64,000 bases of DNA, from assembly GCA_019136655.1 (NCBI GenBank), contig JAGVTU010000009.1, forward strand, positions 1 to 64,000, given 5' to 3'. Position 1 is the first letter of the stretch; each line of letters begins with the position of its first letter. Under the pieces are notes generated by a model. It had not been told where the DNA came from, ran no database searches, and was given only the letters and a program-made list of their open reading frames with translations. Shown here piece by piece: positions 15,652-46,253 of this stretch. The stretch comes from Bacteroidota bacterium (GTDB lineage Bacteria; Bacteroidota; Bacteroidia; AKYH767-A; OLB10). A program made the position numbers and the translations under genes.

Positions 15652-15683
15652 AAAAGAGGCTATCATTGATGATAGCCTCTTTT
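15652..15683. terminator. Bidirectional terminator between bshB1 and a T9SS gene
   Basis: AAAAGAGGCTATCAT and its exact complement ATGATAGCCTCTTTT form a 15-bp perfect stem between two convergent genes, with A- and T-rich arms that supply the U-run in both directions. Confidence 0.9.
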
Positions 15684-17790: not shown

Positions 17791-17819
17791 AAAAAGGTGA
17801 CCTAAAAGGTCACCTTTTT
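17791..17819. terminator. Terminator between the two T9SS paralogues
   Basis: AAAAAGGTGACC and GGTCACCTTTTT form a perfect 12-bp stem with a 5-nt loop. On the minus strand it ends in a T-run 20 bp after the stop of copy 2 and upstream of the copy 1 promoter, so the two paralogues are separate transcription units. Confidence 0.9.
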
Positions 17820-22733: not shown

Positions 22734-22757
22734 TATTGTTAGTTTTATAATTATAGT

Positions 22758-22786
22758 AAAAACAGCCGGTAATTCCGGCTGTTTTT
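22758..22786 (+). terminator. Rho-independent terminator after the TlpA-like gene
   Basis: AAAAACAGCCGG and CCGGCTGTTTTT form a perfect 12-bp stem with loop TAATT, ending in a T-run, 24 bp after the stop codon. Confidence 0.92.
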
Positions 22787-22830
22787 ATTTGGTATAAGAG
22801 GTAAATTGACCATTTAAAGCATAGAATAGT

Positions 22831-40558: not shown

Positions 40559-42121
40559 ATGAATAATCCGGCAAAAAATAAGTTTGAACAATTATTTTTT
40601 GCCGGATTGTTATTGTTTGCAGCTTCATTACCGCTCTCCATGTTTATGATGAGCGTGTCACAGTTTATACTTCTTGGCAGCTGGTTGTTGCAAGGCAATT
40701 TTTCAAACCGACTCAGACAGGCATTTTCCAACAAAGCAGTTTGGATATTATGTTCCGTTTATATTTTGCATTTAATCGGGTTAATTTATTCGGCAGACTA
40801 TGCTTATGCCTTCAAAGATTTACGTGTAAAATTACCATTGCTTTTACTTCCTGTTTTGTTTGCTTCTTCGACACCTCTCACAAACAGGCAACTGAACATA
40901 TTACTCACCGTATTTATCAGCGCAACATTCATTTCAACATTTATCAGTTATCTCATTTATCTGGATGTAATTCATAAACCCATTCGTGATATTCGTGATA
41001 TTTCTGTTTTCATTTCTCATATCCGATTATCACTCTTTGTATGTATAGCTGTTTATGCAGCATTGTGGTTATTGAAACAATCATCATTGCTATTCAAAGT
41101 ACTTCTTATAGCTGTCATTGTTTGGTTCATCTTTTTCTTAATACTGATAGAATCTATGACCGGACTTGGAATATTGACAATTACGTTAGTTGTTATCCTT
41201 TTAAAATATATAGTAGTTAATACTTCCCTGACCTTAAAAATCATTACCGTCTTAATTTTCATTGCTGCAGGATTTTTTTCTTATCAGTATATTGATAAAA
41301 TATGGATTAGAATAAATACTGTCAATAAAGATGAGTTGTTGCACCTTAAAAAAATTACTGCCGAAGGCAATATTTATCTGTATGATACATTGAAAACAGA
41401 TTCTGAAAACGGACATCTGATATGGATTAACCTTTGCGAAAACGAGATGCGTCCGGCATGGAATAAAAGAAGCCATTTGCCTTATGACAGTCTCAATCTC
41501 AAAGGTGATGAATTAAGAATGACCATCATTCGTTATCTCACTTCAAAAGGCACTGCCAAAGATGGTGCAGCCATTAACAGTCTTTCCTTAAAAGAAATTA
41601 CAGCAATAGAAAAAGGCGTTGCCAATGTGGATGATTTACACACATTCGGCATACGATCAAGAATACGGGCTACACTGTGGGAAATTTATCAGTATCAACA
41701 TTTCAATAATCCCAATGGACATTCATTGGCAATGCGTTTTGAATTTTGGAAAACTGCATTTAGTATAATCAGCAACCATCCTATCACAGGAGTTGGAACG
41801 GGTGATGTTCCAACAGCTTTTAAAAATAAATACGATGAACTTAAAAGTCCGCTTTCACCTCAATATCGTTTGCGTTCACACAACCAATATCTCACTGTTG
41901 CAGTAGCGCTTGGTATTCCTGTTTTAATCTGGTTCTTGATTTCACTCATTCTACCCGGTGTTCTTTTAAATCGCTTTCATCATTTTCTATATTTTACATT
42001 TTGGTTAACTGCCATGCTTTCCATGATTACAGAAGATACTCTTGAAACTCAGGCAGGTGTCAGTTTTTTCGCATTCTTTAATAGTGTGTATTTGTTCTTA
42101 TTAGCGAAAAATGACAAATAA
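40559..42121 (+). CDS. O-antigen ligase/polymerase-like membrane protein
   Basis: 520 residues with about ten to eleven membrane helices. The large periplasmic loop (about 250-400) ends with MRFEFWKTAFSIISNHPITGVGTGDVPTAF and SHNQYLTVAVALGIP, the Wzy_C pattern of the O-antigen ligase family (WaaL/PglL type) with its conserved Arg and His. It would join a lipid-linked glycan to lipid A or protein; the acceptor cannot be told. It lies 27 bp after the S41 protease, and no sugar genes are adjacent. Confidence 0.85.
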   Translation: MNNPAKNKFEQLFFAGLLLFAASLPLSMFMMSVSQFILLGSWLLQGNFSNRLRQAFSNKAVWILCSVYILHLIGLIYSADYAYAFKDLRVKLPLLLLPVLFASSTPLTNRQLNILLTVFISATFISTFISYLIYLDVIHKPIRDIRDISVFISHIRLSLFVCIAVYAALWLLKQSSLLFKVLLIAVIVWFIFFLILIESMTGLGILTITLVVILLKYIVVNTSLTLKIITVLIFIAAGFFSYQYIDKIWIRINTVNKDELLHLKKITAEGNIYLYDTLKTDSENGHLIWINLCENEMRPAWNKRSHLPYDSLNLKGDELRMTIIRYLTSKGTAKDGAAINSLSLKEITAIEKGVANVDDLHTFGIRSRIRATLWEIYQYQHFNNPNGHSLAMRFEFWKTAFSIISNHPITGVGTGDVPTAFKNKYDELKSPLSPQYRLRSHNQYLTVAVALGIPVLIWFLISLILPGVLLNRFHHFLYFTFWLTAMLSMITEDTLETQAGVSFFAFFNSVYLFLLAKNDK

Positions 42122-42148
42122 TTTTATTTAGAACCATTCTAAATAAAA
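42122..42148. promoter_or_regulatory. Perfect inverted repeat, probable iron-responsive operator
   Basis: TTTTATTTAGAA, spacer CCA, then TTCTAAATAAAA: 12-bp arms without mismatch. The core TTTAGAA-N3-TTCTAAA is the same as the iron-control element reported for Irr, a Fur-family regulator of alphaproteobacteria. It overlaps the -33 region of the downstream promoter, as expected for a repressor site. It also follows the stop of the O-antigen ligase gene and could act as a weak terminator. Confidence 0.7.
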
Positions 42149-42157
42149 AAATCTATG

Positions 42158-42165
42158 TATTTTTG
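42158..42165 (+). promoter_or_regulatory. -7 box of the porin-Rieske-imelysin-DHOR operon
   Basis: TATTTTTG matches TAnnTTTG, 23 bp before the ATG at 42189 and 9 bp after the inverted repeat. The -33 position falls inside the right arm of that repeat. Confidence 0.6.
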
Positions 42166-42188: not shown

Positions 42189-43376
42189 ATGAAGCATTTA
42201 GTTTGGTTGTTACTGTTGGTAACAACTTCGCCACTGATGGCACAAACAGCAGAAGATTCTCTTCAAAATAACACAGCTAAGGAAAGGCAAACCTATATTT
42301 CTGGTTATGGTGAGGCTAAGGGTTCGTACAACACTCGCTATCGGACAGCACAGGCAAATCTAACGCGAGCAGTAGTTTTTATCGGCCATAAATTTAATTC
42401 CAGAATTTCATTTCTTTCTGAAACCGAACTTGAAAGTGCAAGAGTGGAAGGTGGCAAACCGGGCGGAGAAATTGCTCTCGAACAGGCATATCTTCGTTTT
42501 GAACTGAACCGCACACACTATCTGCAAGCAGGTTTATTCATACCACGAATTGGAATCATCAACGAAAATCATTTGCCCACTACTTTTAACGGTAATGACA
42601 GACCATTTACTGAAACACTTTTAATTCCATCTACATGGCGCGAAATTGGAATTGGTTTTTATGGATCATCCGATCGTCTGCAAGGACTTAGTTATTCTTT
42701 AGCTTTAGTTAACGGACTAAATTCCGGTGATTTTGTCAATGGAAGTGGAATAAGAGAAGGACGGTTTGAAGGAAGTAATGCAACAGCCTCTAATATTGCA
42801 CTGACTGGTTCTGTTACTTATCTCATTCGTGATTTCACAGTTCAAATGTCAGCTTATTACGGAGGTAGTGCAGGACTAAATAATCGCGAAGCAGACAGTC
42901 TTCAACTTAACTCAGGACTCTTTGGTACTCCTGTATCGTTAGGTGAAATTAATGTAAGGTACAATCATAACCGTTTTGCATTTCGTGCACTGGGCGCAGC
43001 ATTATATATTCCGGATGCACAAAAAATAAACAGAGCTTATGCAAATAATACTGCTGAACTTGCAGTAGGTGGTTATGGCGAAGTTTCGTATCGTGTTTTT
43101 ACTAAAACTAAAACAACAGTGTTTCTGCGTTATGAAGCATTTAATCTTAATCAGGAAATTCCTGACAATGGTATTCGCAACAACACATTAGACCAACAGT
43201 ATATTACTGCAGGGTTCTCAGTGTTTCCGGCTGCAGGTGTAGTTATAAAGGCTGACTATGTTTACAAACAAACCGGTAAATTAAATCCTGCACTCAACCT
43301 GAATCCATTTCCGAATGCTCCACCCTACTATACATCAAACAGTTTTATCAATCTTGGTTTAGGTTATAGTTTCTAA
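42189..43376 (+). CDS. Porin-like outer-membrane protein of the iron operon
   Basis: 395 residues with a signal peptide (MKHLVWLLLLVTTSPLMAQ). Alternating strands throughout (ISFLSETELESARVE, YLQAGLFIPRIGIINENHLP, FRALGAALYIPDAQ) and the final strand SFINLGLGYSF with C-terminal Phe mark an outer-membrane barrel of the phosphate-porin/general porin type. It is not a TonB receptor (no plug, no TonB box). First gene of the operon; its stop TAA shares a base with the next ATG (TAATG), so the two are translationally coupled. It may let iron or an iron ligand into the periplasm. Confidence 0.8.
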   Translation: MKHLVWLLLLVTTSPLMAQTAEDSLQNNTAKERQTYISGYGEAKGSYNTRYRTAQANLTRAVVFIGHKFNSRISFLSETELESARVEGGKPGGEIALEQAYLRFELNRTHYLQAGLFIPRIGIINENHLPTTFNGNDRPFTETLLIPSTWREIGIGFYGSSDRLQGLSYSLALVNGLNSGDFVNGSGIREGRFEGSNATASNIALTGSVTYLIRDFTVQMSAYYGGSAGLNNREADSLQLNSGLFGTPVSLGEINVRYNHNRFAFRALGAALYIPDAQKINRAYANNTAELAVGGYGEVSYRVFTKTKTTVFLRYEAFNLNQEIPDNGIRNNTLDQQYITAGFSVFPAAGVVIKADYVYKQTGKLNPALNLNPFPNAPPYYTSNSFINLGLGYSF

Positions 43377-43804
43377 TGGGTAACAGAAGAACATTTATAA
43401 AAAATGGTTGTGCCTTATGCGGTGCGCTGGCAATCGGAATTCCGGCAATGAATTTTTTACAAGCCTGCAAAACAAGTTCAGGCTTGATTCATGCTGACCT
43501 TCATCAGAATAAAATTGTAATCCCGGTAATTACTCTTGCAGATAAATCTGTTCAGGTGATAAGAAGCAAAGGACTCGAATACGATATTTTACTTGTGAAA
43601 GAAAACGAAAAAAAATACCATGCATTACTTATGAAATGCACTCATCAGGCAAATCCCTTGATTTCTACCCAAACAGGTTTGTACTGCAACCTTCATGGCA
43701 GCAGATTTGACCTCAACGGAAATGTGGTAGAAGAACCTGCAAAGCGGCCACTTGAAAAATACAACGTCACAATAGACAACGACAACATTATTATTCATAT
43801 TTAA
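43376..43804 (+). CDS. Tat-exported Rieske [2Fe-2S] protein
   Basis: 142 residues. The N-terminus NRRTFIKNGCALCGALAIG is a Tat signal, and the following LQAC could be a lipobox (Cys31). The Rieske ligands are C-T-H in LMKCTHQANPL and C-x2-H in GLYCNLHGSRFDLNG. The Rieske half has fewer residues between the two ligand pairs than respiratory Rieske proteins, and there is no cytochrome b gene nearby, so it is not a bc1 subunit. It probably carries electrons in the periplasm for the imelysin/DHOR pair; this is inferred. Confidence 0.88.
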   Translation: MGNRRTFIKNGCALCGALAIGIPAMNFLQACKTSSGLIHADLHQNKIVIPVITLADKSVQVIRSKGLEYDILLVKENEKKYHALLMKCTHQANPLISTQTGLYCNLHGSRFDLNGNVVEEPAKRPLEKYNVTIDNDNIIIHI

Positions 43805-43815
43805 TTATATCTAAC

Positions 43816-44868
43816 ATGTTCAAATTAAAAACAACTTTAGCATTATTTATTTTAAGCATCGCTTTCGTAAGCTGTAAAAAAGATGATTCATCCGATAAAG
43901 ATTTTACGAATAAAGAAATACTAACTGATTTTTCTGTCAATGTAGCTCAGGGAACCTACAACGATTTAAATGCAAAGGCAAACCTGTTATACAATGGAAT
44001 AGATGCACTTGCATTAAATCCAACATCTACACAATTAGAGCAATGTCGTCAACTTTGGAAAGACAGCAGAAAAGCCTGGGAGCAGTCAGAAGGATTTTTG
44101 TTTGGCCCTGTTTCTACTGAAAATATAGATCCACGTATTGACACCTGGCCGGTTGATTATAATTCACTTGATTCAGTGTTGAACAGTTCTGCAGTATTTG
44201 ATGATGCTTATATCAATTCATTAGATGATGCCCTGAAAGGTTTCCATCCGATTGAATATTTATTGTGGGGAACTAACGGCACCAAAACTACTGCAGAATT
44301 CACAACACGTCAGTTTGAATATCTTAAAGCATTGGCTTCTAACTTAAGAAACTTAACTCAGGAGTTAAGTGTTGCATGGGAGCCAGGTGCATACCATAAT
44401 GTATTTACTGAAGCAGGCAACGGAAGTGTTGAATACAGCACTGAACAGGCAGCGTTTCTTGAGATGGTGAGTGCAATGGCAGCCATTTGCGAAGAAGTTG
44501 CTGATGGAAAAATAAATGATCCTTTTACAGCACAGGATGCTTCATTGGAAGAATCTCCTTTCTCAGGAAATTCAATCACTGATTTTACCAATAACATCAT
44601 CAGTGTTGAGAATGTGTATATGGGTAAATATATCAATCAGGGAAAGTCGCTTGAAACATTTGTTAAATATTATAATCTGTCATTGGATGCAGATATAAAA
44701 CTTAAAATCAACAATGCAAAATCTGCATTGCAGGCTATAACAGTTCCATTTGGACAGGCCATCTTTACACAACAAACACAGGTTACCAATGCACAACAGG
44801 CAATAAATGATTTAAGAAGTGTATTGGAAAATGACCTTACACAACTTGTACAACAACGCATTCAGTAG
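43816..44868 (+). CDS. Imelysin-family (IrpA/EfeO-like) lipoprotein
   Basis: 350 residues. The signal TLALFILSIAFVSCKKDD has a lipobox Cys at 16. The imelysin fold shows two helical repeats; the conserved GxHxxE-type metal motif is FHPIEYLLWG near residue 137, preceded by WPVDYNSLD. This family (peptidase M75/imelysin, IrpA) is iron-regulated and works in iron uptake. The next gene overlaps by one base, so the pair is coupled, as irpA and irpB are elsewhere. Confidence 0.9.
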   Translation: MFKLKTTLALFILSIAFVSCKKDDSSDKDFTNKEILTDFSVNVAQGTYNDLNAKANLLYNGIDALALNPTSTQLEQCRQLWKDSRKAWEQSEGFLFGPVSTENIDPRIDTWPVDYNSLDSVLNSSAVFDDAYINSLDDALKGFHPIEYLLWGTNGTKTTAEFTTRQFEYLKALASNLRNLTQELSVAWEPGAYHNVFTEAGNGSVEYSTEQAAFLEMVSAMAAICEEVADGKINDPFTAQDASLEESPFSGNSITDFTNNIISVENVYMGKYINQGKSLETFVKYYNLSLDADIKLKINNAKSALQAITVPFGQAIFTQQTQVTNAQQAINDLRSVLENDLTQLVQQRIQ

Positions 44869-46253
44869 TGAAAATAAACAAGCTAAGCATACTTGCAGGA
44901 GTAGTAACGGTTGTGGCATTGCTGCACTCCTGCAGAAAAGCAGAACTTCTTTCAGAATCTGACTGGAACGAGTGGCTCTCCGGTGGTAAGCAAACATTGT
45001 TTGATGAATCTGCGAGAGCATTTTCATCTATGTTTCCTGATATGTCACCGTTCAATCAATTCATACATGGCATAGGTGATAAGGCATTTTCAGCAACTCA
45101 TGTAAGTGCACCCGCACCAATTAATCCGGGATTGGGTCCGATATTTAACAATGTTTCCTGTTCGTCATGCCACATAGCTGACGGCAGAGGAAGACCTCCA
45201 TTGAATCCTTCTGAGCCAATAAGTGCCATGCTGATCAGATTAAGTATTCCGGGCGTGGGTGCTCATGGTGAACCATTAAATGTTCCGGGATTTGGAACAC
45301 AATTACAACAACGGGCTATAGCAGGAAGTATAAAAGAAGCAGATGTATTGGTTACTTATACAGATCAGAATTATACTTTTCCTGACGGAGAAACTTATTC
45401 ATTACGTACGCCACACTATCAGCTTACCAATCCTTATATGGCATTGCCGTCCAACGTTATGATTTCACCGCGTATGGCTCCGCCTGTTTTCGGACTGGGT
45501 TTGCTGGAAGCAGTTGACGAATCAACCATACTGACATATGCTGATGAGTATGATGCCAACGGTGACGGCATTTCCGGCAAGCCCAACTATGTTTGGGATG
45601 TTCTTAGCAACAGCACTAAACTTGGTCGCTTTGGATGGAAAGCAAACAACCCAACTATTCTGCAACAATCAGCAGGTGCTTATAATGAAGATATGGGAAT
45701 TACAAATTATGTTTTCCCAACAGAATCTTCGCATGGACAAATACAATACGATACCCGTAATGATGATCCTGAATTACCTGACAGTTTATTAAGAGCTGTT
45801 TCTTTTTACGTTCAGACATTAGCTGTTCCTGTGCGCAGAAATGCATCAGACCCTGAAGTGTTACACGGAAAAGAATTATTTACCAAAGCGTCATGCGCAT
45901 CATGCCACCGACCTTCTATGGTCACCGGTGTTCATGTTGAGTTTCCTGAAGTAAGCAACACACGAATTTTTCCTTATACAGATTTATTGTTGCACGATAT
46001 AGGTGAAGGATTAGCTGACCATCGTCCGGATTTTAAAGCTGACGGACGTGAATGGCGAACACCACCACTGTGGGGAATTGGTTTGACACAAAAAGTAAAT
46101 GGCCATAATTTTTTCTTGCATGATGGTCGTGCACGTTCACTTGAAGAAGCCATATTGTGGCATGGTGGCGAAGCTGAAAATTCTGTTCAATATTATAAGA
46201 ATCTGTCTAAATCTGACAGACAGGCATTACTGAAGTTTCTTCAATCACTTTAA
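44868..46253 (+). CDS. Di-heme oxidoreductase (DHOR/IrpB-like) lipoprotein
   Basis: 461 residues from a GTG start that shares its G with the imelysin TAG. The signal LAGVVTVVALLHSCRK is a lipoprotein type (Cys22). Two heme c sites are visible: CSSCHIADGRGRP near residue 98 and CASCHRPSMV near 343. The C-terminal block HDGRARSLEEAILWHGGEAENS is the DHOR family signature. In other bacteria the partner of imelysin in iron uptake is this family. Redox partner here may be the Rieske protein. Confidence 0.9.
   Translation: MKINKLSILAGVVTVVALLHSCRKAELLSESDWNEWLSGGKQTLFDESARAFSSMFPDMSPFNQFIHGIGDKAFSATHVSAPAPINPGLGPIFNNVSCSSCHIADGRGRPPLNPSEPISAMLIRLSIPGVGAHGEPLNVPGFGTQLQQRAIAGSIKEADVLVTYTDQNYTFPDGETYSLRTPHYQLTNPYMALPSNVMISPRMAPPVFGLGLLEAVDESTILTYADEYDANGDGISGKPNYVWDVLSNSTKLGRFGWKANNPTILQQSAGAYNEDMGITNYVFPTESSHGQIQYDTRNDDPELPDSLLRAVSFYVQTLAVPVRRNASDPEVLHGKELFTKASCASCHRPSMVTGVHVEFPEVSNTRIFPYTDLLLHDIGEGLADHRPDFKADGREWRTPPLWGIGLTQKVNGHNFFLHDGRARSLEEAILWHGGEAENSVQYYKNLSKSDRQALLKFLQSL

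Follow-up and report, generated by a model that had tools for sequence, protein, structure and literature searches.

A perfect palindrome ahead of a porin-first operon in a Bacteroidota bacterium is very probably the landing site of an ordinary iron-sensing Fur protein, in a position overlapping the promoter of an iron-starvation operon. It lies in a window of 64,000 nucleotides, the whole stretch of DNA analyzed here, and provides a footprint-supported predicted Fur operator for a porin-Rieske-imelysin-di-haem oxidoreductase operon in a Bacteroidota family that has received little study. Sites of this type have been described before in another species of the phylum; the one reported here is well supported but ordinary.

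A perfect inverted repeat covers the promoter of the operon

The palindrome, TTTTATTTAGAACCATTCTAAATAAAA, has the form TTTTATTTAGAA-CCA-TTCTAAATAAAA with two perfect 12-bp arms, and positions 42127–42143 match TTTAGAA-N3-TTCTAAA (TTTAGAANNNTTCTAAA) with no mismatch. Its central part at 42126–42144 is an inverted repeat in the 7-1-7 format of Bacteroidota Fur boxes (ATTTAGAAT-N-ATTCTAAAT), again with perfect arms. The palindrome, the promoter and the operon are arranged as follows:

42122–42148, no strand: predicted operator, perfect inverted repeat with 12-bp arms and a 3-bp centre, kept in congeners
42126–42144, no strand: 19-bp Fur-box core ATTTAGAACCATTCTAAAT, 17 of 19 positions identical to the Riemerella anatipestifer Fur box ATTTAGAATTATTCTAAAT
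42158–42165, plus strand: Bacteroidota-type −7 element TATTTTTG (TAnnTTTG), a perfect match; inferred promoter
42189–43376, plus strand: outer-membrane porin-like protein, first gene of the operon, weak Porin_O_P match
43376–43804, plus strand: Rieske [2Fe-2S] protein with an N-terminal export signal-like stretch
43816–44868, plus strand: imelysin / peptidase M75-like iron-uptake lipoprotein (PF09375, 3.9e-64)
44868–46253, plus strand: di-haem oxidoreductase (DHOR, “thiol oxidoreductase”), last gene of the operon (PF06537, 2.8e-112)

The four operon genes are encoded on one strand with little or no intergenic space. The centre of the box (42135) is located 23 bp ahead of the start of the −7 element, and the −33 region is covered by the box. 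This spacing is identical in genomes G021 and G023, and the overlap of the box with the promoter of iron-type genes is likewise seen in relatives. The original prediction, which had described a perfect 12-bp inverted repeat, its identity to the TTTAGAA-N3-TTCTAAA core and a position over the −33 region of the iron operon, is borne out in all three respects.

From the sequence we infer both binding of Fur to the palindrome and an iron-dependent repressor action. In the presence of iron, a Fur dimer would bind the 7-1-7 inverted repeat over the −33 region and block RNA polymerase. In its absence, Fur would leave and the porin-Rieske-imelysin-di-haem oxidoreductase operon would be transcribed, its products presumably serving iron acquisition and the redox handling of iron.

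The palindrome begins one base past the stop codon (42119–42121) of an O-antigen-ligase-like gene (40559–42121) and can fold at the RNA level (−8 kcal/mol, z −2.6), as a terminator hairpin of that upstream gene might. However, its stem is AT-rich, no T run stands behind it and no terminator-like match was found, so that it lacks the features of an intrinsic terminator, and the same palindrome occurs at feoAB, suf and TonB promoters. Moreover, the box still stands before the operon in G003, G004 and G013, where the adjacent upstream gene is divergently oriented, indicating that the palindrome is not part of the 3′ end of the upstream gene. The probability of a terminator role is thus practically negligible.

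None of 25 dinucleotide-shuffled versions of the window contained a perfect repeat whose arms reach at least 12 bp with a loop of at most 6, and the window itself holds three further repeats of this class, all of them intergenic. Throughout the window's genome (2.96 Mb) the perfect TTTAGAA-N3-TTCTAAA occurs once, at 42127–42143, and the reversed control pattern does not occur. With up to three mismatches allowed, 56 places were found versus 66 for the control; these matches are noise, and only the perfect site and a site at sufB stand out. The latter, TTTAGAATACGTCTAAA, is the second-best site of the genome, lies 20–40 bp ahead of sufB and is conserved in each of the four congeners, and one further site with two mismatches falls within a coding ORF (L008). 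The regulon marked by clear boxes is thus small in this genome, comprising the porin-first operon and suf. A chance origin of the palindrome was ruled out by the shuffles, the reversed-pattern controls and conservation.

The box is conserved ahead of iron genes in the family

Conservation was analyzed in a family comparison set of 24 genomes. An imelysin gene is found in 8 of these, and in all eight the box directly precedes a porin-first operon. Across four genomes of the genus (the window's genome and three congeners), the core keeps its arms without change, while the centre (CCA, CCA, ACA, TTG) and the flanks vary. In G021, the imelysin gene is broken into two ORFs (L127 2516-3569), and the box of the operon is unchanged.

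Searching the 24 genomes for the perfect core gave 24 raw matches, and the reversed control gave 4. Two of the raw matches (G005, G016) count a site again where contig ends overlap, which reduces the set to 22 distinct sites. The majority of them (17 of 22) lie before feoAB (6), TonB receptors (5, among them the doublets of G016 and G017), haem oxygenase (1) or the porin-Rieske-imelysin-DHOR operon (5). The other five are found beside DUF6662/cytochrome c genes (1), beside DUF6686 genes (2) and at the 3′ end of a transporter gene (2). Eight further genomes (G005, G006, G007, G008, G011, G012, G015 and G018) carry a box that is one or two bases off ahead of feoAB. The scan of the window's own genome alone, as originally proposed, would not have settled the matter, given its single perfect site and small clear-box regulon (imelysin operon and suf); the sites at feoAB, TonB receptors, haem oxygenase and the imelysin operon came from the relatives. 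Scattered sites or sites mainly at 3′ ends, which had been named as grounds to abandon the prediction, were not seen: the sites of the relatives are mostly at 5′ ends and overlap promoters.

The box at feoA lies a constant 15–16 bp behind a TAnnTTAG −7 element and would hence cover the transcription-start region, as expected of a repressor site. Within the window's genus, no Fur-box-like site was found in the 350 bp upstream of feoAB (L295–L297, L300), whereas 14 other family genomes have one. Control of feoAB by Fur must therefore be weak or different in this genus, whose iron regulon seems, judging from these promoters, to have been rewired.

Some promoters carry tandem boxes 41–61 bp apart, namely those of TonB receptors in G016 and G017 and of the imelysin operon in G003, G004 and G011, where two near-copies are separated by 41–45 bp. 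Such pairs suggest two Fur dimers per promoter.

Fur is the best candidate for the regulator

A closely similar box is known from R. anatipestifer. Its 19-bp Fur box is a prediction, and purified Fur gel-shifted promoter fragments of four regulated genes; some of the sites given there, such as that of sprT, are poor matches to the consensus, including some at gel-shifted promoters (PMC5609570). In the same species, feoAB is regulated by iron and Fur and has this box in its promoter (PMC10434265), and Mn2+ was required for binding to a further Riemerella promoter under Fur control (PMC7976709). The palindrome of the window resembles this box in phylum, in the 19-bp palindrome itself, in the kinds of targets (TonB receptors, feoAB) and in its location near the start codons of the targets. 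It differs in its centre (CCA versus TTA) and in its target, here the porin-Rieske-imelysin-DHOR operon, and it is known from sequence. PgFur, a divergent Fur from Porphyromonas, fails to bind the E. coli box (PMC6613475), and thus the Fur proteins of the phylum do not all behave alike.

Three candidate regulators are encoded in the genome of the window, two of the Fur family and one of the DtxR family. The first Fur has 158 aa, and its gene lies before a STAS-domain gene and purA (G000:C10). This purA-linked Fur is found in 22 of the 24 family genomes, in most of them as the only PF01475 match. Its metal region is canonical (QHDHLIC...EFCDPR, with CxxC present), and it has no haem-binding HHH stretch. 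The recognition helix, SRATVYNTIEHL, is of the kind associated with the box: SRAT[VIL]YN is common to the genomes that carry the box and yielded a Fur, and G001 and G002, from a genus with neither perfect boxes nor a feo box, have SLATVYN. The relation between helix and box presence is a correlation based on few independent cases. In G003, boxes are present and no Fur was found in an assembly that is 93% complete. By elimination, and together with the published Riemerella data, the palindrome can be assigned with high confidence to this purA-linked Fur as its predicted operator.

In operators of the DtxR family, TTAG and CTAA are 6 bases apart. The DtxR-family protein of the genome, an MntR encoded beside mntH (G000:C2), might read the TTTAG...CTAAA of the palindrome, and the promoter of its own gene bears a similar TTTAGACAAGCCTAAA. 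That site, however, has the 6-base spacer, whereas the palindrome has 7 bases, as in the 7-1-7 format of Fur, and so does not have the layout of an MntR/DtxR operator. Furthermore, three genomes with perfect boxes, G015, G021 and G023 (96–99% complete), yielded no DtxR-family gene. MntR is thus an improbable reader of the site.

Even less probable is the second Fur-family protein, which is encoded beside katG (G000:C3) and has PerR as its best NCBIfam match, despite the fact that PerR boxes also use the 7-1-7 format. PerR is present in only five family genomes (the window's genus and G013) and absent from most of those with a box at feoAB or TonB receptors, and the perR promoter region has no such box. 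In G021, the perR gene (L064, C42) is interrupted by internal stops, and the box of the operon is unchanged. We therefore retain the purA-linked Fur as the candidate regulator.

Identity to the Irr box and occurrence across the phylum

TTTAGAA-N3-TTCTAAA is also what we take to be the core of the alphaproteobacterial Irr box, or iron control element (ICE). The palindrome shares this core, the 7-1-7 format of the Fur superfamily and the association with iron genes. Among the matches listed from alphaproteobacterial contigs, the identical 19-mer precedes rubrerythrin/VIT (MbfA-like), Suf and peroxidase genes, which are Irr-type targets. A true haem-responsive regulator of the Irr type might therefore be envisaged here as well. 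In contrast to the situation at the ICE, which is read by Irr, the window's genome encodes no Irr protein detectable by the NCBIfam models NF045677 and NF045678, which gave 35.2/33.9 bits for Fur and 49.2/53.8 bits for PerR at cut-offs of 170/150; the missing HHH stretch and the canonical metal region of Fur also argue against it. Action of an Irr-type regulator is thus extremely improbable, and the resemblance, as read from the two motifs, is a likeness of two Fur-superfamily operators. In Bradyrhizobium, Irr is a haem-responsive protein that represses when iron is depleted (PMC3413700). The original prediction of a Fur-family operator with an Irr-like target accordingly holds for the Fur-family iron operator, but not for an Irr-like regulator or target: the Irr models fail, and the 19-bp palindrome is a published Fur box of a Bacteroidota species, R. 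anatipestifer (PMC5609570). An exact match to the Irr box outside alphaproteobacteria is no indication of Irr.

Among 395 genomes of the phylum, the exact 19-mer gave 20 matches compared to none for the control. On 68 named Bacteroidota contigs among the matches listed, only 3 sites fall within an ORF of at least 100 aa, and at 61 a gene start lies no more than 250 bp away. Genes adjacent to these listed sites are enriched for cytochromes c, TonB receptors, NqrA, glutamyl-tRNA reductase (hemA) and haem oxygenase, an enrichment that is not seen among control genes located farther away on the same contigs. The predicted Riemerella Fur box thus recurs at iron genes across the phylum, and for this reason Fur regulons of uncultured Bacteroidota should be readable from sequence.

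Besides uptake genes, the perfect 19-mer often precedes iron-using genes (hemA, NqrA, multihaem cytochromes) among the phylum-wide matches listed. It is conceivable, if unlikely, that Bacteroidota Fur has both an operator identical to that of Irr and Irr-like work, controlling uptake genes together with suf, hemA, cytochromes c, NqrA and Rieske/di-haem proteins. If so, the duties of Fur and Irr would be merged in one regulator, through convergence or through shared descent of operator reading.

Related iron-responsive gene clusters

Similar gene sets are known from two other Bacteroidota. In an iron-deficiency transcriptome study of B. thetaiotaomicron, BT2473–BT2482, which include a porin, a thiol oxidoreductase and an M75 protein, were induced 63–324-fold (PMC10434189). 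This cluster has in common with the operon described here the combination of porin, imelysin (M75) and di-haem “thiol oxidoreductase”; it differs in that it contains further genes, among them some for cytochrome-c biogenesis, and in that no Rieske gene is named. In Bizionia argentinensis, the MliR regulon comprises a Rieske protein, cytochrome c, an imelysin-like protein and a TonB receptor that are co-regulated in iron homeostasis (PMC9478572). It shares the Rieske and imelysin-like content with our operon, but MliR is a MerR-like activator and is not known to involve a palindrome of the type found here.

Other inverted repeats of the window

Long perfect inverted repeats with arms of 13–15 bp are located between genes at 15652–15683, 17791–17819 and 22757–22787 and are probably terminators. 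A perfect 17-bp inverted repeat with a loop of 10 lies at 40565–40608, immediately after the start codon of the O-antigen-ligase-like gene. Its stem is partly lost in G021 and G022 and is kept in G023 by paired changes (CCGGCA/TGCCGG to CCCGCA/TGCGGG). This repeat may represent a leader hairpin acting on translation, or possibly a coincidence of coding.
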